Shown piece by piece: positions 535 to 18,477 of a stretch of DNA of 64,000 nt. Positions within the stretch are counted from its first letter, which is position 1, and each line of letters starts with the position of its first letter. The position numbers and the translations under genes are program-made. This DNA is from Acidobacteriota bacterium (GTDB lineage: Bacteria; Acidobacteriota; Thermoanaerobaculia; Gp7-AA8; JAHWKK01), in NCBI GenBank assembly GCA_019347945.1, contig JAHWKK010000002.1, positions 1 through 64,000 on the forward strand. Reading direction: 5' to 3'. The notes under the pieces were generated by a model. It was given only the letters and a program-made list of their open reading frames with translations, did no database searches and was not told the DNA's origin.

Positions 535-636
535 TCTGGGGGTGGCTCGCGAATCATCGTCATGGCGAGCGGGGGGAATCATTCATGAGCCCGCGCCCAG
601 ATCCTTCGCCGTCCTTCGGCGGCTCAGGATGACGAG
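535..636. repeat. Dispersed palindromic repeat, truncated copy
   Basis: The right arm (CCAGATCC, then CTTCGCCGTCCTTCGG, then CGGCTCAGGATGACGAG) matches the right arm of the complete copy at 23296-23435 and resembles that at 47005-47132. The left arm is missing before TCTGGG at 535, exactly where the IS110 leader begins. The natural reading is that the IS inserted into the left arm of this repeat. The remaining inner part (GGCTCGCGAATCA ... GAATCATTCATGAGCC) is itself an inverted repeat. Confidence 0.75.
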
Positions 637-2166: not shown

Positions 2167-2858
2167 CGGATCGAAATGAGATTGTCACGATGAATGGCGT
2201 CGAGAAGGTATTCAGGCGCGGATCGGAAGAGATCCACGTGCTCTCGAGTCTGGACCTCGGCATCGCAGAGGGGGAGTTTCTCGCGCTCATGGGTCCCTCC
2301 GGGTCGGGAAAGAGCACGCTGCTCAACCTTCTGGCCGGACTCGACCGTCCGAGCGGAGGATCGATCGAGGTCGGTGGCCAGCGGATCGATCGGATGTCGA
2401 GCCGGCAGCTCGCACGATGGCGCTCGCGCCACGTCGGTCTGATCTTCCAGTTCTACAATCTCCTGCCGGTCGTCTCCGCCGCGCGAAATGTCGAGCTCCC
2501 CCTGCTCCTCACTTCCCTGTCGCGCGCAAAGCGACGGAAGCAGGTGGAGAACGCGCTCAATCTCGTCGAGCTCGGCCACCGGATGCATCACACGCCGCGA
2601 ACCCTTTCCGGCGGAGAGCAGCAGCGGGTCGGCATTGCGAGAGCGATCGTGACGGACCCGACCCTGGTCCTCGCGGACGAGCCGACCGGCGACCTCGATC
2701 GAAAAAGCGGAGACGGCATCCTCGATCTCCTTCAGGCGCTCAACCGCGAGCACGGGAAGACGATCGTCATGGTCACCCACGACCCCCACGCGGCAGCCCG
2801 CGCCTCAAGAACCCTGCACCTGCTCGACGGGAAACTCTCGGCGGAAATGGCCGCATGA
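2163..2858 (+). CDS. ABC transporter ATP-binding protein, MacB/LolD type
   Basis: This 231-residue cytoplasmic ATPase energises the exporter formed with the flanking adaptor and the two FtsX permeases. All nucleotide-binding motifs are present: Walker A GPSGSGKS at residues 44-51, Q-loop in IFQFYNLLP, signature [14 protein letters not shown], Walker [13 protein letters not shown] and the H-loop His in VMVTHDPH. Length and motif set fit the MacB/LolD/FtsE branch that pairs with FtsX-like permeases rather than classic importers. It overlaps the previous and next genes by 4 bp each, implying translational coupling and equal expression. Confidence 0.93.
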
Positions 2859-4006: not shown

Positions 4007-5196
4007 TGACGAGCTGGCTCGCACAGATATGGTCGCTGATCCGCTTCAATCTGAAGACGTTGCCGGCGCGAAAAGGGAGCGCATTCTCCGCGATCATCGG
4101 CATAGCCGGTGTCGTCGCCGTTCTTATCGGAGTGTTGTCGATCGCGAGAGGTTTCGAGGCCGCGATGACCGGGACCGGCTCTCCGGACACCGCGCTGATT
4201 CTCCGGTCGGGATCGGACAGCGAGCTCACCAGCGCTCTGACACGGGACGAGACGCGGATCGTGGCCGACGCTCCCGGTATTGCGACCGAAGAAGGGGTGA
4301 TTCTCGCTTCTCCCGAGCTCTTCGTCATCGTGAATCTTCCGAAACGCTCGACCGGTACGGACGCCAACGTGCCGATGCGCGGCGTCGAGAAGCCGGCATT
4401 TCTCGTTCGTCCGGAGCTCGAGATCGTCGAGGGTCGGATGTTTCAGTGGGGACGCAACGAAGTGATCGTCGGGCGCGCGGCAAGCCTGCAGTTCTCCGGA
4501 CTCGAGCTCGGCAACCAGCTGACATTCGGCCAGAACGAATGGGAGGTCGTCGGTCTCTTCGAGGCTGAAGGAGGACTCACGGAGTCGGAGATCTGGGCCG
4601 ATGCGGCGGTCGTCCAGCCCGCGTACCGCCGGGGATCCACCTATCAGATCGTCGTCGCGAAGCTCGCTTCGCCGGGTGTCTTCCAGGAGTTCAAGGACAC
4701 GCTGACCGCGGATCCCAGGGTCAATGTCAAGGTCGAGCGCGAGACCGACTACTACGCCAACCAGTCCCGCCTCCTCACCCGCCTCATCGCGGTCCTCGGG
4801 ACTCTGATCTCGGTGCTCATGGCGATTGCTGCGGTTTTCGGAGCGCTCAACACGATGTATACGGCCGTCGCATCGCGTGCGCGCGAGATCGGGACCCTGA
4901 AGGCGCTCGGCTTTTCGGAAAGTCCGGTCGTCATTTCGATCATCATCGAGTCGCTTCTCCTGGCATTGATCGGAGGCGTACTCGGAGCGGTTGCCGCCTG
5001 GGTTGCTTTCGATGGCTTCCAGACGTCGACGCTGAACTGGCAGAGCTTCAGCCAGGTCGCATTCGCTTTCCGGGTGACCCCAGATCTGCTCGTCCAGGGG
5101 ATCGTCTATGCCGCGCTCATCGGGATGATCGGCGGGCTCTTTCCCGCGATCCGCGCCGCCCGGATGCCGATCTCGGTTGCACTGCGAGAATCATAG
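4006..5196 (+). CDS. FtsX-like ABC permease, second copy
   Basis: This 396-residue permease starts at the ATG at 4006, sharing one base with the stop of the preceding gene (TGATG). It has an N-terminal helix near residues 28-48 (IIGIAGVVAVLIGVLSIARG), a soluble periplasmic domain, and three C-terminal helices with the conserved AREIGTLKALGFSESPV coupling region near residue 290. It ends in IGGLFPAIRAARMPISVALR. It is clearly paralogous to the first permease, so the exporter is probably a heterodimer. It is the last gene of the operon; no strong terminator hairpin was recognised after it. Confidence 0.9.
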   Translation: MTSWLAQIWSLIRFNLKTLPARKGSAFSAIIGIAGVVAVLIGVLSIARGFEAAMTGTGSPDTALILRSGSDSELTSALTRDETRIVADAPGIATEEGVILASPELFVIVNLPKRSTGTDANVPMRGVEKPAFLVRPELEIVEGRMFQWGRNEVIVGRAASLQFSGLELGNQLTFGQNEWEVVGLFEAEGGLTESEIWADAAVVQPAYRRGSTYQIVVAKLASPGVFQEFKDTLTADPRVNVKVERETDYYANQSRLLTRLIAVLGTLISVLMAIAAVFGALNTMYTAVASRAREIGTLKALGFSESPVVISIIIESLLLALIGGVLGAVAAWVAFDGFQTSTLNWQSFSQVAFAFRVTPDLLVQGIVYAALIGMIGGLFPAIRAARMPISVALRES

Positions 5197-5356
5197 ATTC
5201 ACGGCCTGCTTCCAGCCTCGGAGGGCTGAGAGAAGGTAGAGCGGGGTGAAGAAAGCCGGGCACGGGCGCGTTCACGGGCGCGGGAAGATCAGGCAGCGAC
5301 ACGCCGGTCTCCCGAAGCGGCGGAACCCGAGTAGGGGCCCTAGGTTAGCCAGCTCC

Positions 5357-5437
5357 GGAGGGGCGACAGATCTCCCGGAGTCTCGCCGGCGTGCGTGTGG
5401 TTCGACTCTACAGGATGTGTGAGAGGGTTCGGGAGAC
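5357..5437 (-). repeat. Gene-tail repeat, short copy
   Basis: This stretch aligns with the left parts of 6292-6445 and 9007-9160: GGAGGGGCGACAGAT, a CTCG(C/T)CGGCGTG(C/T)GTGTG block, then a segment which read on the minus strand encodes R-T-L-S-H-I-L-stop. In the 9 kb copy the same peptide (RTVSHIL) is the C-terminus of the phospholipase-D gene. Here no recognisable gene precedes the tail. The repeat therefore carries a tiny coding end plus about 60 bp of downstream sequence. Confidence 0.7.
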
Positions 5438-5488
5438 GTGCGGGATGCGTTCGGGGCGCGGCCCGGGTCGGCGGGTCGGCTGGCGTCC

Positions 5489-5570
5489 CGCTGCCCGCGC
5501 GTTGCAAGGTCCCGAGCGCGGTACAATGTCGCGTCGCGGGCAGCGCAGCTGAAGCGCCGATCCGTTAGGG
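5489..5570 (+). other. Palindrome ending in GTTAGGG, attC-like site upstream of toxin-antitoxin genes
   Basis: A perfect 11-bp inverted repeat, CGCTGCCCGCG at 5489-5499 and CGCGGGCAGCG at 5535-5545, is followed at 5564 by GTTAGGG within CCGTTAGGGCGC. The same CGTTAGGGCGC occurs after the toxin gene (6165-6175). GTTRRRY is the insertion-core consensus of integron attC sites, and the antitoxin ATG lies only about 37 nt after it, which is cassette-like spacing. No matching RYYYAAC box was found on the left, and no integron integrase is in the window, so this is only a candidate. Confidence 0.3.
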
Positions 5571-5600
5571 CGCGTCCCGCAGCCGAGGTAAAATCCAGCC

Positions 5601-5789
5601 ATGGGAAAACCGAAGGAAGAAGTTCGGCGGATGTTGGATGAGCTCTCCGACGACAGCTCGTACGAAGACATCCAGTATCACATCTACGTCAGGCAGAAGA
5701 TCGAACGAGGTTTGCAAGCGGCAGAGCGTGGCGATCTCATCAATCAGGAAGAAGTCGAGCGCCGGATGGAGAAGTGGCTCGCAGAGTAA
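5601..5789 (+). CDS. Antitoxin-like small protein of a ParE/RelE module
   Basis: This 62-residue, highly charged protein resembles the small alpha-helical antitoxins that precede ParE/RelE toxins; the C-terminal half (GDLINQEEVERRMEKWLAE) is characteristic. It should bind and neutralise the toxin encoded immediately downstream, whose start lies 16 bp inside this gene. Because that toxin is frameshifted, the antitoxin may now be an orphan. The initiation codon is preceded by a short leader that starts at a GTTAGGG motif. Confidence 0.7.
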   Translation: MGKPKEEVRRMLDELSDDSSYEDIQYHIYVRQKIERGLQAAERGDLINQEEVERRMEKWLAE

Positions 5790-6081
5790 GGTGGACCACT
5801 CCCGCCTGGCAGGATCTGACAGAGGCTGCGGATCACATCGCGCGAGACTCGAAGTACTATGCTGCCTCATTCGTTCGCGAGACCAGAGACGCGGCGAGAT
5901 CGCTGAACCACTTTGCCGATCGTGGTCGGGAGGTGCCCGAGCTTGGCGAGCGTCGGTTCGCGAGCTCTTCGTCCAAAACTACCGGCTGATTTACCATGTG
6001 CTCCCGCACGAGGTCCGAATCCTCGCGGTCATTCATCAAGCCCGGGATTCCGCTGCCGTCATCAGGCGGCGTCCTGACTGA
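5774..6081 (+). pseudogene. ParE/RelE-family toxin, frameshifted
   Basis: The first part (ATG at 5774) reads VRWTTPAWQDLTEAADHIA and runs to REVPELGE. The natural continuation SVRELFVQNYRLIYHVL and RILAVIHQARD is in another frame ending at 6081. Joined, these make a normal-length toxin of about 100 residues of the ParE/RelE fold, which acts on gyrase or the ribosome depending on subfamily. The break lies near 5945-5955 and fits a single-base deletion; the unshifted frame stops at 5989. The reading is either a disabled toxin or a sequencing error. Confidence 0.75.
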
Positions 6082-6123
6082 ATCGCTCGAGCCAACCACC
6101 GCACGCTCGACCGCTACTCAATC

Positions 6124-6176
6124 TTTGAACATCGCTGAGGCGTGCGCTGGCAGCTCAGCTCAAACGTTAGGGCGCA
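6124..6176 (+). other. Second GTTAGGG site with bulged stem-loop, attC-like
   Basis: TTTGA (6124-6128), a 5-nt bulge and GCTGAG (6134-6139) pair with CTCAGC (6154-6159) and TCAAA (6160-6164); the stem leads straight into CGTTAGGGCGC. The asymmetric bulge and the terminal GTTAGGG resemble the right half of an attC site, but a proper left core box is not seen. With the site at 5564 it brackets exactly the toxin-antitoxin pair. Confidence 0.3.
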
Positions 6177-6291
6177 GGCCGCGTCGCACGAAAACCATGA
6201 AGATGTTCCGCATCCCTGTTCCCCCGTGGGCAAGAGAATTCAAGCGCGATGTCGGAACCCCGGGTCAACTGGCGAACCATTTTCCTGCCCC

Positions 6292-6445
6292 GGAGGGGCG
6301 ACAGATTCCGAAATCTCGTCGACGCGCGTTGAACCCTGCGGTCAGAGAATGTGCGAGATGGTTCGGGCGAGCTGTTCGGTCGCTTTCTGAGCCACAGCGG
6401 GCGCGAGCGGAACTCATCGAGGTCGAACTCACACGCGTCATGAAT
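6292..6445 (-). repeat. Gene-tail repeat carrying a decayed copy of the phospholipase-D 3' end
   Basis: This stretch aligns over about 150 bp with 9007-9160 at roughly 80 percent identity by eye. On the minus strand it encodes FDLDEFRSRPLW, then after a 2-base insertion QKATEQLARTISHIL-stop. The real gene at 9059-10351 ends VDLEEFRARPLWQKATEQLS then RTVSHIL. It is thus a broken duplicate of that gene's end plus its downstream flank, in the same orientation, on the other side of the protease cargo. It is not an expressed gene. Confidence 0.78.
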
Positions 6446-6451
6446 GTTCAT

Positions 6452-7276
6452 TCAGTCCGGTGTGATCAGAAGAACATGCTGGGTCTCATTGTCGGTCACA
6501 CTCACAAATCCCCAGTATCCGAGCCCTGGCGTCAGTGAAGTCAGTCGGACGTGGAAATGGTCGAACTGGCGGAGCTCCGGGAAGATGTCGGTGATGTTGT
6601 AGATCGCGTCGTACCCGGGATAGCGGTAAAAGCCTGATCCCTTAACCTCGGGAACCGCCGGGTGATCTCCGGGTCGAAGCGTGGTGGTCGCCACCAGATG
6701 ACCTTCCGGGTCGAGCAGCTCCACCTTCACGGCGCTGCCGCGGATCAGGACCGGGTCGAACACGCGAAGCGTCGAGCGAAGTTCCTCCCCCACCGGAACG
6801 GCCAGAAGCACCGCCTCGCGAGTGAGGAAGTCTTTTTCCCGGATCACCGGAATCTCGACGCCGGCCGGCTGGGCATGGCGCGACAACTCGAACAGGCGCA
6901 GATTGAGGTGGATGAGGTCGTCGACCTCCGGAAGATAGAGGAGCTCCCCTTGGTCGGGTGTGGGAGAACCGCCGACCTCACCCACACGACCAAAATAGCC
7001 CGTGGGATAGAGCGGTGCACACGAAAGGAAACAGTCGACTGGCACCTGCAGGAAATGGATGTCGAGGCCGGTGCCGTTATGGATCCACGTTTGGGTAGCC
7101 CAGAGACTCCCGTACGCGCCGGCGGCCTGATCGTGCCTCGTGAGAGCCACCGGAACGAGTACGGTCACCCGACCATCCCCATCGACGTCATTCCCTTCAG
7201 GCTCCAGGGCAGATACTGAAATGCCTGAAGAGGCGAGGATGAGTATCGTCAGGCAGACTGGGAATCGTACATTCAT
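6452..7276 (-). CDS. Secreted protein of unknown function, companion of the S8 protease
   Basis: This 274-residue protein begins with a clear signal peptide (about residues 1-23, MNVRFPVCLTILILASSGIS) and should be exported. A short acidic DVDGDGR stretch follows the cleavage region and could bind calcium. The rest is rich in beta-prone segments, with two Cys close together in VDCFLSCAPLYP, and no family was recognised. A GGAGAG ribosome-binding site precedes the ATG. It lies 15 bp after the S8 protease gene on the same strand, so the two are probably co-transcribed. A role as protease partner or inhibitor is a guess from position only. Confidence 0.7.
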   Translation of the reverse strand: MNVRFPVCLTILILASSGISVSALEPEGNDVDGDGRVTVLVPVALTRHDQAAGAYGSLWATQTWIHNGTGLDIHFLQVPVDCFLSCAPLYPTGYFGRVGEVGGSPTPDQGELLYLPEVDDLIHLNLRLFELSRHAQPAGVEIPVIREKDFLTREAVLLAVPVGEELRSTLRVFDPVLIRGSAVKVELLDPEGHLVATTTLRPGDHPAVPEVKGSGFYRYPGYDAIYNITDIFPELRQFDHFHVRLTSLTPGLGYWGFVSVTDNETQHVLLITPD

Positions 7277-7291
7277 GATCAGCTCTCCTCT

Positions 7292-8901
7292 CTACTCGCA
7301 TTCGCCGGTCGGTGAGCCGGCAGCTTCATTCCAGTAAACCATTCGCGCTCCGGAGGCGTTCCCCACCACGTTGAACTTGTACGGCGGATAGCCGGCACCC
7401 CAGGTTTGCTGCTGCGTGTCGTATCCCAAGGTTCCACTGGGGCACTGCGCTGGCGGGCTGGAAAGCCAGGTTTGATCACGTAGGCTATTATTCGGATCAA
7501 CATCGAGGCAGAACCAGTAATCGTCCGTGGTCGTCAGGTAGATCTCGGCCGAGGCATTTGCGAGCAACCATGAGTATACGGCTTCGCTACCGGGCGTGCT
7601 GCCCGTCTCGCTCTTCTGCCGTTCCATGTAGCGTGCTGCAATACCGGCCACAATCGGCGACGCAAAGGAGGTTCCGGTCGCGCGATCGTACAGCGTCAGA
7701 TTTTCATCAACGTCTCTGTAGAGAGAATGGCGCGCCGCATAGATACTGGTCGCGGGCGCATAGATGCTGACGCACGCACCCGAATTGGAGCCGCTGTCAT
7801 GGCCGACGTCGATGGTGGACGAATCTTCCCAGAACTGAAACCGGTAATCCTTCGGATCCGTCGAGGATGTCGATACGCTCGTACCTCCCACAACAAAAAC
7901 GTATCCCGAACGAAGGCTCGTCCGGGCACGGTCGTTAGGGGCGAAGAGGCATGCATCGGCAGTGAAGTTGTCAGCCGAGGTAAAGAACGGCTTGTTCGTG
8001 GCGTTCACCAATCCCTCGACAGCCACGCTGTATGCCGATGGTTGTGAACCACCGCCTTCGATCTCATCTTTCCAGTCAGGGACGAATCCGCTGTGGTTCA
8101 CCACTCCCGGCAGGGATATGTATGGATTGCTGTTCGGATCCGCGATCCAATCGGTCGCGTCGATGAGATCCGCCGTGAGGGCTTGACCGTTCAAACACTG
8201 TGCAATCTTCAATGAAACGACCTGTGGCTTTGCAACACCGACCTGGGTTCCCGCGAGGACGGACGCGACCGCGGTGCCATGCCACAGGTGCGGCTGCTCA
8301 TAGCCTGGCGCGGTGCATCCGTTGGTCACATCCGCTGTAAAAGGCTTGGACTTATCCGTCCGGTCCTCAGAGAAATCGACCGAGTGAACGACACGGGAGG
8401 GGTCCTCGAACTGGGGGTGATCGCTTTGGACTCCTGTGTCAATGACGTATGCGTAGACGCTGCGCCCCTCGGTGCACATATTGTGCTTGCTGTCGCGATC
8501 CTCCCATGAAACCTCATCCACTCGGTCGAGGTGCCACAGGTATTCACCATTGAACCATGTCCATTGGGTCCCTGAGATCTGCGGCTGCGGAGTTTCGGTC
8601 GTGAAGTTTTGCTCGACGAAGCGGATTCGTGGATCGGCCGCCATCGCATCGATATTCGTGTCCGATCCCCTTGTTAGAAATCCACGAAGCGAGTATCGCC
8701 AGACATCGACGAGATCCAGAGCGTAAGATTCTGTGAGAGAAGCGCAACACCTTCCACCGCTTCTGAAGGTATGGCGGAGTCTAGAACGACCATGTACTCC
8801 CCTTGAACACCCGTAGCAGGATGCCGGATCACTTTCGATGGAATGGCGGAAACAGCCGTAGCGCTGAACAGAAAAATACAGGCGATATGAAGATTTTTCA
8901 C
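7292..8901 (-). pseudogene. Secreted S8 (subtilisin-like) serine protease, frameshifted in the propeptide
   Basis: The N-terminal piece (GTG at 8901, GGGAGAAA upstream) has a signal peptide and the start of an I9-type propeptide (GEYMVVLDSAIPSEAVEG). The propeptide end (VDVWRYSLRGFLTRG, then MAADPRIRFVEQN) and the catalytic domain continue in another frame down to 7292. The shift lies near 8735-8745 and corresponds to one missing base. All catalytic residues are intact: Asp in AYVIDTGVQSDHP, His in WHGTAVASVLAG and Ser in GTSFASPIVAG. An internal ATG at 8644 could give a propeptide-less, leaderless protein that would not be secreted. Either a recent inactivation or a sequencing error explains it. 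The gene lies between direct repeats 6292-6445 and 9007-9160. Confidence 0.8.
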
Positions 8902-9006
8902 AGTTTCTCCCTTAGGTTCGATCTCGTATCAGGAGAGTCAGCCACCATGATTTTCATACCTGCTAGAAGTGATCTGTAACAGAATCGTGACAGAGAGGGC
9001 GTGGTT

Positions 9007-9160
9007 GGAGGGGCGACAGATCCCGGATTCTCGTCGGCGTGTGTGTGAACCTCGACTGTTACAGAATGTGTGAGACGGTTCGTGAGAGCTGTTCGGTCGC
9101 TTTCTGCCACAACGGGCGCGCCCGGAATTCCTCGAGGTCGACCTCATGCGCACGCGTCAG
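9007..9160 (-). repeat. Gene-tail repeat, copy containing the true phospholipase-D 3' end
   Basis: The right part (9059-9160) is the last ~100 bp of the phospholipase-D coding region, and the left part is the shared downstream flank ending in GGAGGGGCGACAGAT. It is in direct orientation with 6292-6445, so the two copies bracket the S8 protease and its companion. The gap between the repeat and the protease start (8902-9006) should hold the protease promoter, but no clear boxes were identified. Confidence 0.75.
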
Positions 9161-10351
9161 ATCGTCTTCGAAGATCCTGACGAGCTGGCCTCCGATCTCG
9201 CTCGACGAAAAGACCATCGCGACCTCGTCGTTGAGCATCATCGACCGATTGTCGAAATTGATCGTACCGACGTAGCCCCACTTGCCGTCGACCACCATCG
9301 TCTTCGCGTGGACCATCGTCGGCTCGTACTCGAAGATCCGGATTCCGGCTTCCATGAGCTCCTCGAGATGGGCGCGCCCGGCGAAGTACGCCGGCCTCTG
9401 ATCGGTGTTCCAGCCGGGGTCGAGGATCCGGACGTCGACGCCACGCTTCGCGGCTTCCATCATCAGCGTGCGAAAGTCGTCATCCGGAACGAAGTACGGG
9501 GTGGTGATGCAGATCGAGCTTTTCGCCGCGGCGATCGAGAGAACGAAAAACCGTTCGGCGTTCGTGCTGCCGATCGACGGATCGGTGTGCATGATTCCGG
9601 CGCGTACATCTCCCGCCCGCGCCTCTGCATCATCCTCGATCTCGCCGAACAGAACTTCGCCCATCAGCAGCTTCGCGCTCGATTCCGCCCAGTTCGCAAT
9701 GAACGCCCCCTGGAGCTGGTCGACCGCAGGCCCCTCGATCCGGACGTTCGTATCCCGCCAGCATCCCTCGGTCTTTCCGTCGCCGAGCCACCGGTCGTCG
9801 ATCCCGAAACCGCCCGTGTACGCGACCGCTCCATCGATGACGACCGCGCGGATGTGCATACGCTGACCGATCTTGTAGAGGAGGTTCCATTGGAATGGCC
9901 GGAAAACATTCACATGAACGCCGGCGTCGCGTAACCCGTCGAGGTACTCATCACTCAAACCATCCGTCCCGAAGTAATCGTAAAGAAAGTTCACCTTCAC
10001 ACCGGCCTTCGCGCGTTCGATGAGCGCCTCGCGGACCCGATCGGACAGCTCTCCGGGCCGATGAAAGAAGACGTGCCAGGAGATCGACTTCTTCGCCGTT
10101 CCGAGCTCGTCGATCATCCGGTCATAGGTGCCGTCTCCGTTGAGGAGGATCTCGACCCGGTTGCCGTCATAGAGCCGGCTGCCACTGAGGACTTCGAAGT
10201 GGCGGAGAAAGAGCGCACCGCCCACCTCCGGAAGCTCATCCGTTTCATCGAGGATCTCGACACTGCTGACCCGGGTCTCACGCGTGATGTACGGAATCGT
10301 CACGAGCAGGAACAGCCCGATGATCAGAAGGAGAACGATGATGGTGACCAC
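9059..10351 (-). CDS. Phospholipase D superfamily protein, cardiolipin-synthase-like
   Basis: This 430-residue enzyme has one N-terminal membrane helix (about residues 3-22) and two PLD domains. It probably condenses phosphatidyl groups to form cardiolipin at the inner membrane. The second catalytic motif is canonical, HAKTMVVDG with Lys. The first reads HIRAVVIDG, with Arg in place of the usual Lys, although the downstream GGFGIDDRW is kept. Length is a little short of E. coli ClsA. The last residues (RTVSHIL) are shared with the repeat copies at 5.4 and 6.4 kb, so the 3' end may have been supplied or replaced by that element. The gene ahead on the same strand is the TlpA-like lipoprotein, 73 bp upstream. 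Confidence 0.85.
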   Translation of the reverse strand: MVTIIVLLLIIGLFLLVTIPYITRETRVSSVEILDETDELPEVGGALFLRHFEVLSGSRLYDGNRVEILLNGDGTYDRMIDELGTAKKSISWHVFFHRPGELSDRVREALIERAKAGVKVNFLYDYFGTDGLSDEYLDGLRDAGVHVNVFRPFQWNLLYKIGQRMHIRAVVIDGAVAYTGGFGIDDRWLGDGKTEGCWRDTNVRIEGPAVDQLQGAFIANWAESSAKLLMGEVLFGEIEDDAEARAGDVRAGIMHTDPSIGSTNAERFFVLSIAAAKSSICITTPYFVPDDDFRTLMMEAAKRGVDVRILDPGWNTDQRPAYFAGRAHLEELMEAGIRIFEYEPTMVHAKTMVVDGKWGYVGTINFDNRSMMLNDEVAMVFSSSEIGGQLVRIFEDDLTRAHEVDLEEFRARPLWQKATEQLSRTVSHIL

Positions 10352-10424
10352 GGCGAGGGCGCTTGCGAGGGTTGCGCCGGGGGGTAGTCGTCCCGCTCGG
10401 CGAGAGAGTCCGGGATCTCAGCCT

Positions 10425-11033
10425 CTAGAAAGAGACAGTCGTCGAGGGGGAAGCGGGACCGAGCAATTCCGTCAGGAGGTCGATCAGCTCCGGGTCGTCG
10501 CTCGAGACCGGACCGATGTGATACCAGCGGACATTACCGTCGCGGTCGACCAGAACGGTCGTCGGGACCACGGTCGTGTTGAACGCGTCCAGGGTCGTCA
10601 TGCCGGGATCGTGGATCACCGCGTAATTGATCTCGAAGTTGCGAACGAACTCCTGGATCTGCGGGGCGGTTCCGGCGTTGTCGACCGAGACTCCGAGAAC
10701 TTCGAAGCCCTTCGGTCCCCAGGCCGACTTCAACTCGATCAGATCGGGAATCTCGTAGCGACAGGGCGTGCACCACGTCGCCCAGATGTTGATCAGGGTC
10801 ACATTGCCTTCGAGGTCGCCCGACCATCGCCCGCCGGCGAGGGTGACGGCCTCGAACTGAGGCAATCGATCGCCGATCTCGATGCCCCCCCTCTGCTGCG
10901 GAGCACTCTGGACGATTCGCGGTCCGCTGTCTCCGAGCTCGGAGGTCTGTTCGTCCCCGCCACATCCGGCGATGCCGGGCAGCAGCAGCGTCGCCGCCAG
11001 CAGGTACGAAAAAGCCCGCCTTTCAGCGGGCCT
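10425..11033 (-). CDS. TlpA/ResA-like thioredoxin-fold lipoprotein (start unresolved)
   Basis: The frame encodes a lipobox (LLLPGIAGC), a short linker and a TlpA/ResA thioredoxin domain with the active site WATWCTPCR and cis-Pro region TTVVPTTVLVDRDG. Such proteins are periplasmic, membrane-tethered disulfide reductases, often for cytochrome c maturation. No ATG, GTG or TTG lies between the terminator of rplY and the lipobox. The coordinates given begin at RPAERRAFSY, a plausible charged n-region that overlaps the terminator stem; a CTG at 11003 is the other option. A non-canonical start, coupling to rplY (stop 22 bp upstream) or a sequence error could explain this. Confidence 0.72.
   Translation of the reverse strand, partial: RPAERRAFSYLLAATLLLPGIAGCGGDEQTSELGDSGPRIVQSAPQQRGGIEIGDRLPQFEAVTLAGGRWSGDLEGNVTLINIWATWCTPCRYEIPDLIELKSAWGPKGFEVLGVSVDNAGTAPQIQEFVRNFEINYAVIHDPGMTTLDAFNTTVVPTTVLVDRDGNVRWYHIGPVSSDDPELIDLLTELLGPASPSTTVSF
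11009..11032 (-). terminator. Rho-independent terminator after rplY
   Basis: On the minus strand GGCCCGC-TGAAA-GGCGGGC is followed by TTTTT, a strong stem with a U tract just after the rplY stop. It overlaps the probable N-terminus of the TlpA-like gene, so read-through or a promoter within rplY is needed to express that gene. Confidence 0.85.
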
Positions 11034-11055
11034 GTTCTTTTCGAGAGTGTGGATG

Positions 11056-11730
11056 TCAGTCCTCTTCTTCTTCTTTTTCTTCTGCCTCGTCCTTCGCGCG
11101 TCCGATGAGCTCCGGTTCGGCGATCTCCTCGATCCCTTCCTCGGGCTCTTCGACTTCTTCGATGGCCTTCGGTGCAACCGAGACGACGACGCGATCCTCG
11201 TCGACGTCGTAGAGCTCAGCCCCCGGAGGAATGGCGAGGTCGGAGACGCGACGGACGTCGTTGATGTCCATGTCGGTGACGTCGATGACGAACTCGTCCG
11301 GGATGTCGGCCGGAAGACATTCGACCTCGAGCTCCCGAAGCTGAAAGTCGAGAATACCGCCAAACTGCTTCACGCCCTTCGCCGTTCCCGTCACGTGGAT
11401 CGGAACCGTCACGTGAACCTTCTCGTCCATGTTGACGCGAATGAAATCGATGTGGGTCGGACGCCTGCTGATCGGATCCATCTGGAAATCACGGATCATC
11501 GCGTGACGGGTCTGATCGCTGTCTGCCAGCTTGAGGAGGAAGACCGAACGGATGCCGTGATCACCCTTGCGGATGAGGTCGGTCAGTTCGCGCGAGCCGA
11601 CGGTGATCGCCATCGAATCGCGATCTCCACCGTAGACGACGGCCGGGATCTTCCCGTCCCGTCGTAGTTTTTTGGCGGCTCCGGAGCCGGTCTTCTCGCG
11701 CCGGGCCACTTCGAGGGTCATCTCAGACAT
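11056..11730 (-). CDS. rplY: 50S ribosomal protein L25, Ctc (long) form
   Basis: This 224-residue protein binds 5S rRNA in the large subunit. The N-terminal L25 domain (EVARREKTGSGAAKKLRRDG, then PAVVYGGD near residue 30) is followed by the Ctc/TL5-type beta domain containing VPIHVTGTAKGVKQFGG. A very acidic tail from about residue 188 ends in EEKEEEED. In many genomes rplY sits beside pth; here pth is at 51.7 kb, so that pairing is broken. A strong terminator follows 24 bp after the stop. Confidence 0.95.
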   Translation of the reverse strand: MSEMTLEVARREKTGSGAAKKLRRDGKIPAVVYGGDRDSMAITVGSRELTDLIRKGDHGIRSVFLLKLADSDQTRHAMIRDFQMDPISRRPTHIDFIRVNMDEKVHVTVPIHVTGTAKGVKQFGGILDFQLRELEVECLPADIPDEFVIDVTDMDINDVRRVSDLAIPPGAELYDVDEDRVVVSVAPKAIEEVEEPEEGIEEIAEPELIGRAKDEAEEKEEEED

Positions 11731-11802
11731 GCTGCAATACTCCTTTCGAATCTACGCCGTGCCCGATAAAAGCCCTCGAATCAAACAAATTCCCATAGAA
11801 AC

Positions 11803-11835
11803 AGGGACCAGGGATCAGGGATCAGGGATCAGGGG
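11803..11835. repeat. Tandem heptamer array (AGGGATC units)
   Basis: AGGGACC-AGGGATC-AGGGATC-AGGGATC-AGGGG lies in the gap upstream of rplY. The same heptamer in inverse orientation is at 47434-47458. It has no coding potential and resembles the short tandem heptamers (STRR) known from cyanobacteria in size and placement only. Confidence 0.7.
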
Positions 11836-11949
11836 TTGCAAACCCAGAGCTCATTCATCGACTCAACGTGCCGCTTTCGGCTCTGGGATCGAGAAGGTCG
11901 AGCGCCCGATCCCGGATCTCGACGCGGACCCCTGCGTTACCATCCCTCC

Positions 11950-12405
11950 ATGAGATATGCCGCCATCCTCCTCGCTCTTTCCCTCCTTCTCGGCTGCACA
12001 TCCTCAGCTCCTACCCAGGCCTCCGACCTCGAGGAGATCCAGGCGCAGAGCCGCGCGCTCTCCGAGGCTTATGCCCGGGAGAACATCCCGGCGCTGGTCG
12101 CGATCTACACCGTGGACGGTGTCGCGGCGCCCGGCGGCCGCGACTTCGTTCGGGGTCCGGAGGCGCTGAGGCGGCTCTGGACGCTTCCGGATGGGGCCGA
12201 CGTGATTCGTCATCAGGCGACCCCGGTCGAGATCGTCGTCGACGGCGATCACGCGTACGACTGGGGCTACTACGAAGGGGAGACGGTCCGGGAAGGACAG
12301 GCATCGCCGTTCCGCGGAACCTACGTCATCATCTGGGAGCGGGGCGAAGACGGGGTGTGGCGCATTGCCGTCGACATGTGGGCGCGGCTCCAGAACCGGA
12401 ACTGA
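11950..12405 (+). CDS. Lipoprotein with SnoaL/DUF4440-like (NTF2 fold) domain
   Basis: This 151-residue protein has a short signal peptide with lipobox LLLGC at about residues 11-15, so it is probably a lipoprotein. The remainder matches the SnoaL/DUF4440 pattern of the NTF2-like fold: a helix (ALSEAYARENIPALVAIYTV), then the GVAAPGGRDFVRGPEALRRL region and a final strand with YVIIWERGEDGVWRIAVDMW. Such domains include enzymes and ligand-binding proteins, so no reaction can be assigned. The stop is 5 bp before the 49-bp tRNA-derived repeat, so this is the last gene outside the genomic island on this side. Confidence 0.75.
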   Translation: MRYAAILLALSLLLGCTSSAPTQASDLEEIQAQSRALSEAYARENIPALVAIYTVDGVAAPGGRDFVRGPEALRRLWTLPDGADVIRHQATPVEIVVDGDHAYDWGYYEGETVREGQASPFRGTYVIIWERGEDGVWRIAVDMWARLQNRN

Positions 12406-12410
12406 GGAAG

Positions 12411-12459
12411 GGGTGGAGCCGTTGGCCGGACTTGAACCGGCGACCTGCTGATTACGAAT
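12411..12459 (-). repeat. Distal attachment repeat (3' half of tRNA-Thr)
   Basis: These 49 bases are identical to 18399-18447, which is the 3' half of the intact tRNA-Thr gene from the anticodon loop through the T arm, acceptor and CCA end. The match stops abruptly at 12460. This is the expected distal att site of an element integrated into the tRNA gene. Confidence 0.88.
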
Positions 12460-12829
12460 TCGATCTAACGAAAGTCGCCGAGAATCGCAGGAAGCCGGAA
12501 AGCCTCATTTCTCAGGCCTTTCGTTCGCTCTTCCACTCGCGGAGAATTGCTGCGAGTCGCGGGGGTGGCTGTCAAACTGGCTGTCAAATGATCTGTTCTG
12601 ACGGCCACGGTCACGCGGCAGAGGCCACGCACGGCTCGAGAGCGGCCGTCATCGAGGAGCACGAGAGAGGCCCGCCCGGCTGGTTGCAGCAGGGACAGCG
12701 CTCGCCCGCGCTCCCAAAAAATCGGAGGGGGTGGGGGTGTACCCAACCCTTGGAATTGAAACCGGGTCCCCTCTCTCTACTCAAACTGTCCCACTTCATG
12801 AACGGGTTCGAAGCCCGGAGGAAAACAAG
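12460..12829. other. Island edge without a clear gene, possible integrase relic
   Basis: This 370-base stretch has no convincing gene. The minus-strand frame 12465-12746 ends 6 bp from the att repeat, where integrase genes usually end. Its tail (TDHLTASLTATPATRSN) looks like the unstructured C-termini of some tyrosine recombinases, but no catalytic motif is visible. It may be a decayed integrase end or chance. A G-run (12724-12736) precedes the next gene. Confidence 0.3.
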
Positions 12830-13474
12830 ATGAACGACGAACGAGAATTGACGCAAAGCGAGAAGCTCTCCCTGGCATTCAGGCTGATCGAAATCACGCC
12901 GCCCGGTGAGCTTCACTGGTTCGAGCCGACCGATACCGGCGATGCAGACGAAGACGGCTTCATGAACCCGCGGGCACGCGTCCGGGCCCTGCTGTCTGCC
13001 GACTGCGACGAGGAGCTCATGCCTTTTAACTACGTCTTGACGGTCTGCGAGAACTACACGGTCGGCGGAATCGAGGGAGTGCGGAAGGTCTTCCGTGCCG
13101 CGCTGGAGAACGAGGAATTCGAGCCGGACGTCAGTGAACCTGAAGCCATCGATCCGGAGAGCATCGGGTTTCTCTTCCTGAAGCGATCTGATTTCCTCCG
13201 GGTCGTGACCAGGCGAACCGGCCTCACTGTCGGCTATCTCTGCGAGATCCTCACCGATCGAGATACCGCTCGAGACTCCCGGCCCGGCTTCTCTTTCGGG
13301 GCCGGGAAGTCCCGCGACAACTCGGAAATGACGGATGAGCTCCATCTGCCCGCTTGGTTTCTCGCAGAGGCGTTGGCAGCAGCGAAGCAGAAGTATCTGA
13401 GAGTTTCCTCGGTGAGTGAGACGCGGATCCGGTGGACTGCACCGGAGCCGGAATTCGACGAAGAAGCGATCTGA
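12830..13474 (+). CDS. Island protein of unknown function (214 aa)
   Basis: This soluble, acidic protein starts at an ATG at 12830 with GGAGG about 8 nt upstream. No signal peptide, membrane helix or known motif was recognised. The central segment (FLKRSDFLRVVTRRTGLTVG, about residues 118-137) has helix-turn-helix-like periodicity, but this is weak. A decayed copy of its last codons plus its terminator occurs at 16612-16716, so the gene or its end was once duplicated within the island. It reads toward the convergent PIN-domain gene. Confidence 0.65.
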   Translation: MNDERELTQSEKLSLAFRLIEITPPGELHWFEPTDTGDADEDGFMNPRARVRALLSADCDEELMPFNYVLTVCENYTVGGIEGVRKVFRAALENEEFEPDVSEPEAIDPESIGFLFLKRSDFLRVVTRRTGLTVGYLCEILTDRDTARDSRPGFSFGAGKSRDNSEMTDELHLPAWFLAEALAAAKQKYLRVSSVSETRIRWTAPEPEFDEEAI

Positions 13475-13482
13475 GACGTGCG

Positions 13483-13523
13483 CGAGGGGGCATCCGTCCG
13501 GAATGGAAGGCTCTGCCCCTTCG
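13483..13523 (+). terminator. Terminator after the 214-aa island gene
   Basis: CGAGGGGGCA pairs with TGCCCCTTCG around a loop, followed by a T-rich AATTCTTCTTTT. The hairpin is nearly the reverse complement of the one at 16665-16716. Confidence 0.65.
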
Positions 13524-13560
13524 AATTCTTCTTTTGCCAGATGGAAAATCTGGAAGAAAA

Positions 13561-14106
13561 CTACTCTTCTTCGTCGGCGTCAGGCTCTTGTCCTGATGGA
13601 AGAGCTCGGAAAAGAGTTCCCTGAGCCTCGAAGGGCTCTTCGATTTGAAGATTCCACTTCCCACAGATCGGGCTTTTCAGGCTCAGAAGATCGCTGGGGC
13701 GTAGGCGATCACCCGCCCCGTCGAGAGTCCACATGGAATCGACCTCGGATGCTATTGCCGTGGCGGCGTGGACTGCATCTGGAGTCTTGATCTTCGGGTC
13801 ATCGTTCTCGCCGCTGTAGGTGTATCGGATCTCGCGCGCGATGTCGGCGACTCGGATGTCTACGTTACGCTCGACGACATTTCGGCGAGACAATAGTCCG
13901 ACGAAGCGCTTCTCTTTTTTAGGATCCAGCTTCGTCTTGGTTATCTCGATGCGGGTGATGGTCGATGTGACCAGTGTCGCCTCCCCAGCTTCGACCCTAT
14001 CGATGCAAGCGTTGATGCCGTCGAGGACGGAGGTCTTTCGCTTCTCCATGTCGATCAATGCTATGAACACGCAGGTATCCCAGTAGATCTTTGGCGACTT
14101 ACTCAT
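13561..14106 (-). CDS. PIN-domain protein, VapC-like
   Basis: This 181-residue PIN-fold ribonuclease candidate retains the acidic residues expected for metal-dependent cleavage: Asp in IYWDTCVFIALID near residue 9, Glu in STITRIEI near 53, Asp in KTPDAVHAATAIA, and Asp in MWTLDGAGDRL. It is longer than typical VapC toxins (about 130 residues), with an acidic C-terminal tail. It overlaps the 273-residue gene upstream by 8 bp, so the pair is almost certainly one transcript. VapC toxins cleave tRNA or rRNA; whether this one is a toxin is inferred. It ends convergently with the 214-residue gene. Confidence 0.8.
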   Translation of the reverse strand: MSKSPKIYWDTCVFIALIDMEKRKTSVLDGINACIDRVEAGEATLVTSTITRIEITKTKLDPKKEKRFVGLLSRRNVVERNVDIRVADIAREIRYTYSGENDDPKIKTPDAVHAATAIASEVDSMWTLDGAGDRLRPSDLLSLKSPICGKWNLQIEEPFEAQGTLFRALPSGQEPDADEEE

Positions 14107-14920
14107 CCTCAGCTCTCAGCTCCTCCAGGTAATCTCGCACGTTCTTTCCCTCGGTGAGCCCTGGCGACATATTCCGGAGGTCGCTCAGTTTAGGAAGATC
14201 CTTTTCATCGGGCAGCTCCTCGATTTCATCGACCGCGATGTGATCGGCGAAGTTCGATCGCGGCTTGTACCGCAGCTCTCCGTATATCCGGACCCATTTT
14301 CGGCCCGCCAGGGCCCGTAGAACCTGATCCATTTGTTCAGCCTTAAACGAGCAATCGATACTCGTCGGGCCGATGATCGGATAGATTCTGCACTTGCGAT
14401 CCTTGTGAAGGTTCACCGCTTCAAGGCTGCCCTCTACCGAACCGTATTCGTAGGATGTTTCGCGAGCCCACAGGTCGAAGAAGGTCTTTTGATACTTCTC
14501 ATCCATCACCAACGGCTTCAGCTTCTCTCCCACCACCCTGAACTCGATGCGACGCATGTGGTCATCCGTGGACGGAACGATCTTGCTGAGCGTATCCAGA
14601 GATGTGCTCGGCACTTGGTCAAAGCGCCCCTTACCGAGGTGAGCCATTGACCTTTTAAACGTCCTGACGACCTGCCGACCCGCATTCATTGGAACATCTC
14701 GGTTGATGGGCCTCGGCTCTACCACAAACCCGGAGCTTTCGTTGACCAACTCCACCACCACGTAGTTGAGACCTCTCTTCTGTAGAACGCTCCTCTCGAT
14801 TTCCCGGAGCCCATTGACAATCCTCTCCAGCCTGTCCGCCAGCTCGTCGAGGCGGACGTCTCCTTCCTCATCGTCTCCGATGAATCGGATGTAGAGACGT
14901 GGTGGTTTTCGGGTGGTCAT
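14099..14920 (-). CDS. Partner of the PIN-domain protein, unknown family (273 aa)
   Basis: This 273-residue cytoplasmic protein is encoded just before the PIN gene and overlaps it by 8 bp. The N-terminal half contains RLYIRFIGDDEEGDVRLDEL and a predicted helical region. The C-terminal end (LSDLRNMSPGLTEGKNVRDY, then LEELRAEDE) looks like the short toxin-binding tails of VapB-type antitoxins, which fold into the PIN active site. No DNA-binding ribbon-helix-helix or AbrB motif was seen, and the size is far above a normal antitoxin. It may be an unusual antitoxin or a partner that delivers the nuclease to a target. Confidence 0.65.
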   Translation of the reverse strand: MTTRKPPRLYIRFIGDDEEGDVRLDELADRLERIVNGLREIERSVLQKRGLNYVVVELVNESSGFVVEPRPINRDVPMNAGRQVVRTFKRSMAHLGKGRFDQVPSTSLDTLSKIVPSTDDHMRRIEFRVVGEKLKPLVMDEKYQKTFFDLWARETSYEYGSVEGSLEAVNLHKDRKCRIYPIIGPTSIDCSFKAEQMDQVLRALAGRKWVRIYGELRYKPRSNFADHIAVDEIEELPDEKDLPKLSDLRNMSPGLTEGKNVRDYLEELRAEDE

Positions 14921-15025
14921 TCAGGGACAGTATGGACCGTATCGAATCGACGTGCCAGCATCAGTACATGGCGAGATGACTCCTGTGGTTTTACCTAACG
15001 GTGCCATCGGCGGCTCCTTCCTCCC

Positions 15026-15259
15026 TCAGTCGTCGTCTTCCGCGCCAAGCAGATCCAGCACCTCTTCAGTCGCTTGATCACAGCAGATCTCCGCCGTGAG
15101 CTGTAGTGATTCGAGTTCGCTCCCCGAAACCTTGATGTCCCGAACGCGCTCCCCGTGCTCGGGGCATCGATAGTCCGAGACCGCATCAGCGATCGACTCC
15201 GTCACGGCTTCCTTGATCGCGTCATCGAAAGAGTCCATACCGTCGAAGGTGATCTTCAT
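15026..15259 (-). CDS. Small Cys/His protein (77 aa), third gene of island operon
   Basis: The ATG at 15259 overlaps the stop of the 97-residue gene (ATGA), which fixes this start over a longer upstream frame. The protein has a helical first third, a CPEHG motif near residue 33 and a CC pair near residue 59. This CPxHG...CC arrangement recurs in small uncharacterised proteins and probably binds zinc. It ends with an acidic AEDDD tail. Its function is unknown and is probably linked to the two genes before it. Confidence 0.6.
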   Translation of the reverse strand: MKITFDGMDSFDDAIKEAVTESIADAVSDYRCPEHGERVRDIKVSGSELESLQLTAEICCDQATEEVLDLLGAEDDD

Positions 15260-15549
15260 GTGTCTTCTCCATCTGTGAACCGCGAGCGGACGTCTCTCTC
15301 GCAGACGTCGAGCGCCGCGCGGAGCTCGCGCTCTGTTTCCGGACCGGGCAGCGCGAGCCAGCGGTACACCGGCCGTGCCTCGTCGCCCTTCCACTCCATC
15401 ATCCAAGCGAGATGCCGAGCCCGAACCGGCGCATCCCAGTCCAGATCACGGCCGTCGAGGTATCCGCGAAAATCCTCGATGTAGCTGAGGATCGCGTTCA
15501 ACGTTACCTCCGTGAACTCCTGCTGGAATGTGCGCTCGGACTCACTCAT
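15256..15549 (-). CDS. Unknown 97-aa protein, second gene of island operon
   Basis: This is a small acidic, Trp-rich cytoplasmic protein (RHLAWMMEWKGDEARPVYRW near the middle). It overlaps the upstream gene by 8 bp and the downstream gene by 4 bp, so all three are translationally coupled. No family was recognised and no signal peptide or membrane helix is present. Confidence 0.6.
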   Translation of the reverse strand: MSESERTFQQEFTEVTLNAILSYIEDFRGYLDGRDLDWDAPVRARHLAWMMEWKGDEARPVYRWLALPGPETERELRAALDVCERDVRSRFTDGEDT

Positions 15550-16570
15550 GGGTTTCTTTCATCGACCACTCGTTTTCGTCGCTGTCATTTACGGTCACAT
15601 TTGAGAGCAGCTCTCCTGTGTTCGGGCGTCGCGTTGGTCCCCGGAGCTTCAGTCGTGCGCACCGATGGCGGATAGGACGCAAGTCCAGCTGTCGCGCCCG
15701 CCAGTTGTGTAGAGTCTGGTGATTTCGAACGCACAGCGCGCAAAACACTGAAACTGGCCCGCGATCGCCGTGAAAAAGTATGACACCGTCTACTCCAACC
15801 TGGTCGAGGAGAAAGGACATGTACGTCAGAGAGTGTAAGAGAAACGGGTAGTCTGCAGTCTGCTTGGTGTGACGACGCCCCGATGAGTCGCCCCCGATAA
15901 CTAGGTACAGCTCCTCGAGGCGGTAATCGCATCGTATCCTGTCACCTTCGGCCGAGTTCAGACTCGGGGCCTTCCGCTGAAACACCTCATTCATGACATC
16001 CGGCCCCATCCGGAGCCACTGGTTCAATCCGACCACTCGAAGGAGAGGTGGCGCATCCTCTTCTATGCGCCGCCATTCAACGTGAATATTTTGGATATAC
16101 CGCCCGACCAGCGAGTTAGGCTGCGGGAGCAGATCGTGACCAAATAATGTCGTCCGGTCCAGTTTCGCCACCGAACTCTCAAGGAAGCCGGATAGCTGCG
16201 AAACGAACGCCTCCCTCTCGTTCTTTCGAGGGAGTTCAAAGGGATCAAGATGAGCCCCAGACATCCGAAATCGGAGGCTGATTGATGTTCTATCCAGGTG
16301 AGTCACTTTTGCCAGTTTTACCTCCAGCCGCGGAGCAATATCACTCCACTCTAACTCGACCCGTCGCGCTGTTGAACCTCCCTTGTTGGTGGTACCTTCA
16401 GCGAACATTTCCGTGAGCTGCAAGCCCACCCTCTTCCCGCCGTCTGCGACCAGGACCCCGTCTATCCCCGGGACATCGAAGTGTTCAAGTTCGGCGGTAT
16501 GGAGCAGTGGATGGCCGGCGATTAACCGCTCAAGGACTCTGCGCTCCCCATCGAATGGATTACCTCCCAT
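15542..16570 (-). CDS. Unknown protein with possible PD-(D/E)XK-like core, first gene of island operon
   Basis: The frame is open back to 16777, but I place the start at the ATG at 16570 (MGGNPFDGERRVLERLIAG, 342 residues). Upstream codons read through the terminator and gene fragment at 16612-16716 and look non-coding. Near residue 40 the order is EHFDVPGIDGVLVADGGKRV followed by GLQLTEMF, reminiscent of the Glu-Asp-(x)xVE(L/V)TE strand pattern of degenerate PD-(D/E)XK nucleases. This is a weak structural hint only. The rest is unrecognised. The start has no good ribosome-binding site, so the position is uncertain. Confidence 0.55.
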   Translation of the reverse strand: MGGNPFDGERRVLERLIAGHPLLHTAELEHFDVPGIDGVLVADGGKRVGLQLTEMFAEGTTNKGGSTARRVELEWSDIAPRLEVKLAKVTHLDRTSISLRFRMSGAHLDPFELPRKNEREAFVSQLSGFLESSVAKLDRTTLFGHDLLPQPNSLVGRYIQNIHVEWRRIEEDAPPLLRVVGLNQWLRMGPDVMNEVFQRKAPSLNSAEGDRIRCDYRLEELYLVIGGDSSGRRHTKQTADYPFLLHSLTYMSFLLDQVGVDGVILFHGDRGPVSVFCALCVRNHQTLHNWRARQLDLRPIRHRCARLKLRGPTRRPNTGELLSNVTVNDSDENEWSMKETHE

Positions 16571-16611
16571 GGCAACATAAAACGCAAAGTGCACCAAGGG
16601 GATTGCCCCCC

Positions 16612-16656
16612 GGGTGGACTGCACCGGACCCCGAATGCGACGAGGAGCGATCTGAA
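16612..16656 (+). pseudogene. Duplicated 3' end of the 214-aa island gene
   Basis: GTGGACTGCACCGGA, then CCGAAT, CGACGA and GCGATCTGA follow the order of the last 45 bases of the gene at 12830-13474, with an extra G and several substitutions that break the frame. It is followed by a hairpin corresponding to that gene's terminator. It is a relic of duplication and not expressed. Confidence 0.65.
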
Positions 16657-16664
16657 GACACGGG

Positions 16665-16716
16665 GCGAAGGGGCAGAGCCTTCCGGCGTCCCGGATGGAT
16701 GCCCCTTCGCCTTTTC
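16665..16716 (+). terminator. Strong hairpin terminator before the secreted 116-aa gene
   Basis: GGCGAAGGGGC (16665-16675) pairs perfectly with GCCCCTTCGCC (16702-16712) and is followed by TTTT. It should stop plus-strand transcription ahead of 16780. The loop sequence is nearly the reverse complement of the loop at 13493-13513. Confidence 0.7.
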
Positions 16717-16779
16717 TCAAGCTCTCTTCGGGAGTATGATTTCGAGCACTCAACTCAACGACATCATCAGGAGGCACCG

Positions 16780-17130
16780 ATGAGAATTCAGCGAACTACC
16801 GGCGTCCAGCATCTACGCCAATACGCAGCTATGACGGTTCTCATCATTCTCTTTGCAGTGCCCGTATTCGCCGATCGCGGTGAAGTCGTGCGAACCCTGA
16901 AGAACTGCGATTTTTTCATCGTGGAGGTTGAAGGAGTTGATTATGCGGTAATCGAGTCCTGGGATCTTTCGGTCCCCGACAAAAAAGACGAGCTCATCGG
17001 CGAGTTCAACACGTACGGCATGGTCACGCTGTACAACAAAACTCAGGATCTTGAGATCGAGGTTTACATCGAGGACTACATGCTTTTTGAGGATGAGGCG
17101 AGCAGGATTCTGTTTGAGAAATGCGAATGA
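16780..17130 (+). CDS. Small secreted protein of unknown function (116 aa)
   Basis: An AGGAGG box 5 nt before the ATG gives a confident start. After a charged n-region, a hydrophobic segment (AAMTVLIILFAVPVFA, residues 17-32) looks like a signal peptide cleaved after AFA-like VFADR. The mature part is about 84 residues, acidic, with one Cys near each end (NCDFFIVEVEG and FEKCE) that could form a disulfide. Base use is more AT-rich than the chromosomal genes, in line with island cargo. Confidence 0.65.
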   Translation: MRIQRTTGVQHLRQYAAMTVLIILFAVPVFADRGEVVRTLKNCDFFIVEVEGVDYAVIESWDLSVPDKKDELIGEFNTYGMVTLYNKTQDLEIEVYIEDYMLFEDEASRILFEKCE

Positions 17131-17215
17131 GGATGATTTTGAGATCCGTGGAATCGTCCGGCGCGGAATCAAGGTCACGACGTTCTCGAAGATCAGTGGT
17201 TGAGGGGGTAAACCG

Positions 17216-17494
17216 ATGACCCAAGCAACCCGCTTCACTGACGCGGAACTCTCGAAGTATGTAGTCTGCACCGCATGCGGCTACTTCGGGATCCCCCGAT
17301 CGTATTCGTGCGTTCAGCTCTTCGTCCTGATCTTCCTGCTGCTCTTCGGGATTCTTCCGGGACTGATCTACGCGGCTGTCGTCGATGCGTGGAAGAAACG
17401 CTGCCCACGGTGCGACAACAAGTCCCTCATCCCGGCCACCGCTCCAAACGCGAAAGCCATGATCGCCGAAGGCAGGGTCCGCGGCGCTCAGTGA
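17216..17494 (+). CDS. Zinc-ribbon membrane protein (92 aa)
   Basis: This small protein has a CTACGYFG zinc-ribbon half at about residues 18-25 and a hydrophobic segment (VLIFLLLFGILPGLIYAAVV, about 37-56). A second half, CPRCDN, follows near residue 63. The CxxC-membrane hairpin-CxxC order resembles LITAF-like domains, which sit on the cytoplasmic membrane face. Function in bacteria is unknown. It follows the secreted 116-residue gene by 85 bp on the same strand. Confidence 0.65.
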   Translation: MTQATRFTDAELSKYVVCTACGYFGIPRSYSCVQLFVLIFLLLFGILPGLIYAAVVDAWKKRCPRCDNKSLIPATAPNAKAMIAEGRVRGAQ

Positions 17495-17691
17495 GGTACC
17501 AGGTCACCGGAGTCGAAGAGCCGGGCGGGAGGGATATCAGGGCTCGGGAGTTTGGCTGAGGCCGAATGTACAATGGCACCGAGAGCGAACTCTGCGAGCT
17601 TGCACCCCGATGATTCAGGAATGCTCCTTCATCCGCTGGAAGTATGGAGCGCCCGAGGCCTCGACATGATGCTTAGGGCGACAGGAAATCT

Positions 17692-18180
17692 GTGAGGGGG
17701 AGGCGGGTCTGGCTTGGGATTGCGGTGGCGGTCCTCGCCGTGGTGATATTCGTCGGACCACTCGTAGGTAATGCTGTTCATCGATCAAGAACCAAAGCTC
17801 GCGAGGCAGAAGAGGCAGCGCGTGCAATGGCGATAGTTGACTCCGGAAGGATCACGATCACGGAATGGAGTGGGACGGCCTCGGCAACAACTCCGTCGGC
17901 GACCCTCTGGGGGCGCGTAAAGAATCGGTCCGATGAAAACATCGCTCGCGTCCACCTCGAAGCAACGCTGCACCACTGCCCCGATGCCGCGCCGGTTCAG
18001 CATATCGGGCGGCGATCCCCGGAGATGATATGCGAGACCGTAGATCGGGACTCCTTCGAGATCCTGGATGTGCCGGACGGCGAATCGCGAGACTTTGAGG
18101 AGATGGTCCTGTTTACTGCGATACCAAGCGAGCACGGCTACCGCCTGGACGTTAAAATCACAAGCGTAGAGTTGGAGTAA
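17692..18180 (+). CDS. Membrane-anchored protein with FxLYD-like domain (162 aa)
   Basis: It starts at GTG (17692) with an AGGAAA box upstream. An N-terminal helix (WLGIAVAVLAVVIFVGPLVG, residues 7-26) anchors it. The remainder reads as a beta-sandwich, with ATLWGRVKNRSDENIARVHL matching the FxLYD/DUF pattern of extracytoplasmic beta domains. Function is unknown. It is the island gene closest to the tRNA, about 220 bp away, and that gap shows no further gene. Confidence 0.6.
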   Translation: MRGRRVWLGIAVAVLAVVIFVGPLVGNAVHRSRTKAREAEEAARAMAIVDSGRITITEWSGTASATTPSATLWGRVKNRSDENIARVHLEATLHHCPDAAPVQHIGRRSPEMICETVDRDSFEILDVPDGESRDFEEMVLFTAIPSEHGYRLDVKITSVELE

Positions 18181-18398
18181 CGGGAGGATGTCGATCGATC
18201 GCGTCACACTCAGACGTGTCGGAGCGCGTCCGAACAAACCGGGAATTCGTCGTCTGTCAGCGCAAACGTTCCCTCCGCCCGCTTGATGGATGGAAGTAGG
18301 CCTCCAGCAATCTGACGTGATTCTGCGAACGTTATTTGCCCCTCGGAGGGCGGCTGAGTCCCTCCCACATGAGTCGAATACGAGGAGGCTTAGGAAAA

Positions 18399-18447
18399 GG
18401 GTGGAGCCGTTGGCCGGACTTGAACCGGCGACCTGCTGATTACGAAT
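18399..18447 (-). repeat. Proximal attachment repeat within tRNA-Thr
   Basis: These 49 bases are identical to 12411-12459. They cover the tRNA from the anticodon loop to CCA plus three bases beyond, so integration here leaves the tRNA intact. Confidence 0.88.
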
Positions 18448-18477
18448 CAGCTGCTCTACCAACTGAGCTACAACGGC
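18402..18477 (-). tRNA. tRNA-Thr(CGU)
   Basis: On the minus strand the 76-base cloverleaf folds fully. The acceptor GCCGTTG pairs with CAACGGC, the D arm is GCTC/GAGC, and the anticodon stem GCTGA/TCAGC encloses the loop TTCGTAA, giving anticodon CGT. The T arm GCCGG/CCGGC encloses TTCAAGT. CCA is encoded. It reads ACG threonine codons and serves as the integration site of the adjacent island. Confidence 0.95.

Follow-up and report, generated by a model that had tools for sequence, protein, structure and literature searches.

A probably stranded, integrase-free island in tRNA-Thr(CGU), an apparent recurrent integration site in Thermoanaerobaculia

Organization of the island

The window, i.e., the whole stretch of 64,000 nucleotides analyzed in this study, contains a 49-bp perfect direct repeat (12411-12459 and 18399-18447; 51 of 52 positions are identical over the longer extents 12408-12459 and 18396-18447). 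The two copies bracket 5.9 kb, forming an island of about 6 kb that lies downstream of an intact tRNA-Thr(CGU), the sole tRNA of the window. The following features were assigned, with the basis of each call given in brackets:

12411-12459, minus strand: distal att copy, a displaced tRNA 3′ half (junction alignment)
12460-12829, no strand: noncoding distal end of the island (codon statistics, no Pfam match)
12830-13474, plus strand: 214-aa orphan protein (codon score 0.37; no family; no viral relatives)
13561-14106, minus strand: PIN-domain protein, putative RNase (PF01850, E=1.4e-10; 8-bp overlap with the upstream gene)
14099-14920, minus strand: 273-aa partner of the PIN protein, unnamed family (relatives and their neighborhoods)
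15026-15259, minus strand: 77-aa orphan (4-bp overlap with the upstream gene)
15256-15549, minus strand: 97-aa orphan (8-bp overlap with the upstream gene)
15542-16591, minus strand: orphan of about 349 aa, first gene of a three-gene operon (start estimated; mechanical open reading frame to 16777)
16613-16717, plus strand: incomplete second copy of the 214-aa gene's 3′ terminus and its terminator-like hairpin (first copy at 13431-13532)
16780-17130, plus strand: 116-aa protein whose hydrophobic N-terminus resembles a signal peptide (sequence, codon score)
17216-17494, plus strand: small membrane protein of 92 aa containing two CxxC pairs (zinc-ribbon matches weak, below cut-off)
17692-18180, plus strand: 162-aa protein with a single membrane helix at its N-terminus (sequence, codon score)
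18399-18447, minus strand: tRNA-side att copy, the 3′ half of the intact tRNA-Thr(CGU) (within the tRNA gene)
18402-18477, minus strand: intact tRNA-Thr(CGU), the putative integration target (called by both ARAGORN and Rfam)

The distal copy runs from tRNA position 31, at the edge of the anticodon loop, through the CCA end plus 3 bp. Located 5.9 kb past the 3′ end of the tRNA and in direct orientation, it shows the geometry expected of site-specific integration into a tRNA gene. In the whole 3.72-Mb genome the two att copies are the only strong matches to the repeat, the third match being an ordinary tRNA-Thr(UGU) with 81% identity. Sequence comparison, ARAGORN and Rfam thus agree with the first-pass annotation, which had described a perfect 49-bp repeat of the tRNA-Thr(CGU) 3′ half around about 6 kb. 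Since the tRNA is intact and its 3′ end is directly repeated on both sides of the insert, the locus has the structure of a tRNA-integrated genomic island. The att sequence found no match in the viral contigs searched. In relatives, neither rplY nor the membrane gene on the tRNA side adjoins tRNA-Thr, so that synteny gave no definable empty site. Comparison across the class (see below) serves as a strong replacement for an empty site in a close relative.

Nine genes fill the island. Their codon scores are host-like or weaker, with a weaker host-like usage in several of them, and the G+C content of the island is 57.4% vs. 60.9% for the window. The earlier description of the cargo as accessory is supported. 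The minus strand carries the three-gene operon (349, 97, and 77 aa; overlaps of 4-8 bp), followed by the 273-aa gene, which overlaps the PIN gene. Searches of 396 genomes of the phylum as well as of plasmids and viral contigs yielded no relative of the 349-aa protein; for the 273-aa protein none was found in plasmids or viral contigs, and for the 214-aa protein none in viral contigs. Likewise, the island DNA had no match in phage records, no genes of phage or satellite type were found in the island, and the cargo proteins matched no conjugation or mobilization module. No other genome with this cargo set was found, so that no movement of the set is evident. Single-sequence structure models of the 349-aa and the 273-aa protein (pLDDT of 32 and 49, respectively) were too poor to interpret.

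The two copies of the 214-aa gene's 3′ end and hairpin (13431-13532 and the partial one at 16613-16717) flank the minus-strand block with the PIN gene, its partner and the operon. Given the partial second copy at 16613-16717, this block may itself have been inserted beside the 214-aa gene.

The PIN gene and its partner

The cargo had previously been annotated as containing a PIN pair. One PIN gene (PF01850) is indeed present, whereas the second gene encodes an unrelated 273-aa partner, whose family ranges from 260 to 370 aa in relatives and carries no Pfam or NCBIfam name. In the four other genomes of the phylum with a relative of this protein whose neighborhoods were read (L052, L053, L103, and L104), a PIN-type gene directly follows the gene in each case, the one in L053 being frame-shifted or shortened. 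Since this adjacency recurs in other genomes, the pair is likely to be a functional unit. A search of the PIN protein against PDB sequences yielded no match.

The arrangement resembles PIN toxin-antitoxin systems of the VapBC type in that it consists of two overlapping genes, the second of which encodes a PIN domain and thus a predicted RNase. However, VapBC systems have a small DNA-binding antitoxin upstream, whereas the partner in the window has 273 aa and matches no antitoxin family. The pair would most simply be read as a toxin-antitoxin-like module, and as such it could help to retain an island that is no longer able to re-integrate. Being conserved and unnamed, it offers a concrete starting point for toxin-antitoxin or defense assays.

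Recombinases in the island and in the genome

As stated in the first-pass annotation, no integrase is visible in the island: no match to Phage_integrase (PF00589) was found anywhere in the window, and the four matches in the genome, which is 99.65% complete, all lie elsewhere. They correspond to XerC and XerD (both over the equivalog cut-offs), a third Xer-like protein, the gene of which adjoins tRNA-Gly, and one pseudogene, a fragment with a stop. A search of the same genome with Resolvase models yielded no serine recombinase. As only Xer-type recombinases and a pseudogene are present, the genome offers no visible helper integrase, so that the island has neither an integrase of its own nor a visible helper.

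The same annotation had proposed a C-terminal integrase relic bordering the distal repeat (12465-12746, minus strand). This candidate was rejected, since its codon score of -0.11 bits/codon is like that of noncoding DNA (island genes: 0.08 to 0.44), it has no significant Pfam match, and the integrases of two relatives (G002 and G006) used as queries found no match in the island. The 219 bp beside the tRNA also contain no integrase-like stretch.

A broken XerD-like fragment was observed beside the intact xerD, near tandem paralogous genes (L004/L007, G000:C3, about 170045-172108), which suggests a local segmental duplication at that locus.

tRNA-Thr(CGU) islands in other Thermoanaerobaculia

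The tRNA-Thr(CGU) 3′ half was used as a search pattern in 148 genomes of the Thermoanaerobaculia (Acidobacteriota). Together with alignments, this search revealed that in seven other genomes of the class the 3′ half is duplicated on the contig that carries the tRNA, downstream of it and always on the same side. The distances between tRNA and copy amount to 47 kb (G002), 16 kb (G004), 9.8 kb (G006), 0.96 kb (G007), 40 kb (G045), and 51 kb (G047), and to 9.4 and 71 kb for the two copies in G099. In an eighth genome, G066, two displaced copies are separated by 12 kb, and the contig stretch that was read contains no complete tRNA. In the junction alignment every displaced copy, including that of the window, begins at one and the same anticodon-loop position (TTCGTAAT) and runs through CCA. 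The displaced copies match the tRNA of their own host with two exceptions: the G004 copy lacks one base, and the second copy of G066 deviates at one base.

PF00589 matches are present inside five of these islands, near the tRNA end in G002 (C51:458737), G006 (C120:79839), G047 (C35:383488), and G099 (C2:78908), and near the distal repeat in G045 (C32:173781). The site is hence used in relatives by integrase-bearing elements with the same breakpoint, and a search for integrases with a matching att, which the first-pass annotation had recommended, finds them at the same tRNA. The G006 integrase, of 468 aa, comprises the catalytic as well as the SAM-like domain and has its end at the tRNA. In the G066 island the integrase is broken, a fragment with a stop being all that is left, and the islands of G004 (16 kb) and G007 (0.96 kb) gave no PF00589 match. 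Including the window, three of the nine occupied genomes surveyed therefore have no integrase in the island.

The same breakpoint and the same tRNA side in different families are unexpected from random duplication, and are expected from tyrosine integrases with a crossover in the anticodon loop. Judged by these junctions, tRNA-Thr(CGU) is a recurrent integration site in the class, with the window island as one integrase-less occupant; the claim of a site-specific island is borne out by the repeat geometry as well as by this common breakpoint. A recurrent site with a fixed anticodon-loop breakpoint is thereby documented in a poorly cultured acidobacterial class, and since some of its islands are without any recombinase, they would be missed by integrase-based island finders. 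The same-order islands examined have no cargo in common with the window island, so that its descent from any of them is not supported.

Two of the other islands were read more closely. In addition to the displaced repeat, the G006 island (L093, G006:C120:64000-83900; 4928-5001 and 6609-16511) contains the integrase, a small HTH gene and a serine recombinase. Past its distal copy there is a degenerate second tRNA-Thr, which suggests tandem or successive insertions. The att-bracketed 16-kb insert of G004 at the same tRNA (L099, G004:C65:28700-48600; 412-16918) carries three large genes of 2678, 815, and 1731 aa.

Origin of the island

An origin of the repeat by chance or by segmental duplication of the tRNA, without any site-specific recombination, is barely credible. 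Partial tRNA duplications do occur, and G006 also has a degenerate second tRNA-Thr, but the displaced copies share one breakpoint in nine genomes, often together with an integrase, and in all cases with the tRNA on the same contig they lie on its 3′ side. Such a common breakpoint effectively refutes duplication. It also bears on the idea that the cargo itself encodes an unrecognized recombinase moving the island, for which the 349-aa and the 214-aa protein, both orphans without family matches, might be candidates. This is very improbable as well, as ordinary tyrosine integrases in relatives use this very breakpoint and neither orphan matched the Phage_integrase or Resolvase models in the searches of its own genome.

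Somewhat less remote, though still unlikely, is a true satellite that never needed an integrase of its own and is moved in trans by other elements at the tRNA-Thr(CGU) site, as the first-pass annotation had suggested. Integrases for the identical site do exist in relatives, a third of the occupied genomes surveyed have none in the island, and the att copies of the window are intact and identical, which would still permit recombination. Nevertheless, the recombinase content of the host genome described above, the failure to find the cargo set in a second genome and the lack of phage- or satellite-type genes in the island speak against it, leaving trans-mobilization unsupported. The island resembles satellites and tycheposons in its position at a tRNA and in being bracketed by a partial tRNA repeat, but it differs from them in having no recombinase or satellite signature genes, i.e., it lacks their defining features. 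A more elaborate combination, in which the window, G004, and G007 islands form an integrase-free pool kept mobile in trans by co-resident integrases and the window island is in addition anchored by a new two-gene PIN system with the 273-aa protein as a large undescribed antitoxin, is slightly less probable still.

By far the most probable explanation is that an integrative element entered tRNA-Thr(CGU) and later lost its integrase or was left behind, so that it is now a stranded, CIME-like island. The element would have entered by tyrosine-integrase recombination in the anticodon loop, presumably with an integrase of the type found in relatives, and integration would have restored an intact tRNA at one end while shifting the original 3′ half to the other. 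Afterward, the integrase may have been lost, or a larger element occupying this site may have left the island, its passenger, behind. What remains would be an immobile island carrying the PIN-domain module, which might stabilize it, and orphan genes. No piece of an integrase is left that would favor loss over original absence.

Compared to the tRNA-borne islands with tyrosine integrases, such as that of G006, the window island shares the target tRNA, the breakpoint and the orientation but differs in having no integrase and an unrelated cargo. CIMEs (cis-mobilizable elements) are decayed elements in which the att sites persist but genes for recombination and conjugation are missing. They are common, with 215 of them counted at tRNA-Lys in Streptococcus agalactiae (PMC7563491). 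Unlike these, the window island has no recognized ICE or IME ancestor, nor is it in tandem with an integrase-bearing element; with neither an integrase remnant nor such an ancestor identified, CIME-like is the furthest label the evidence allows. In its other traits it agrees with CIMEs (PMC7563491): it has att copies at both ends and cargo genes, it contains neither a recombination nor a conjugation or mobilization module, and its size falls within the classical CIME range of 1.2-13 kb. The island itself hence looks like a familiar kind of locus, an ordinary stranded remnant of a mobile element.
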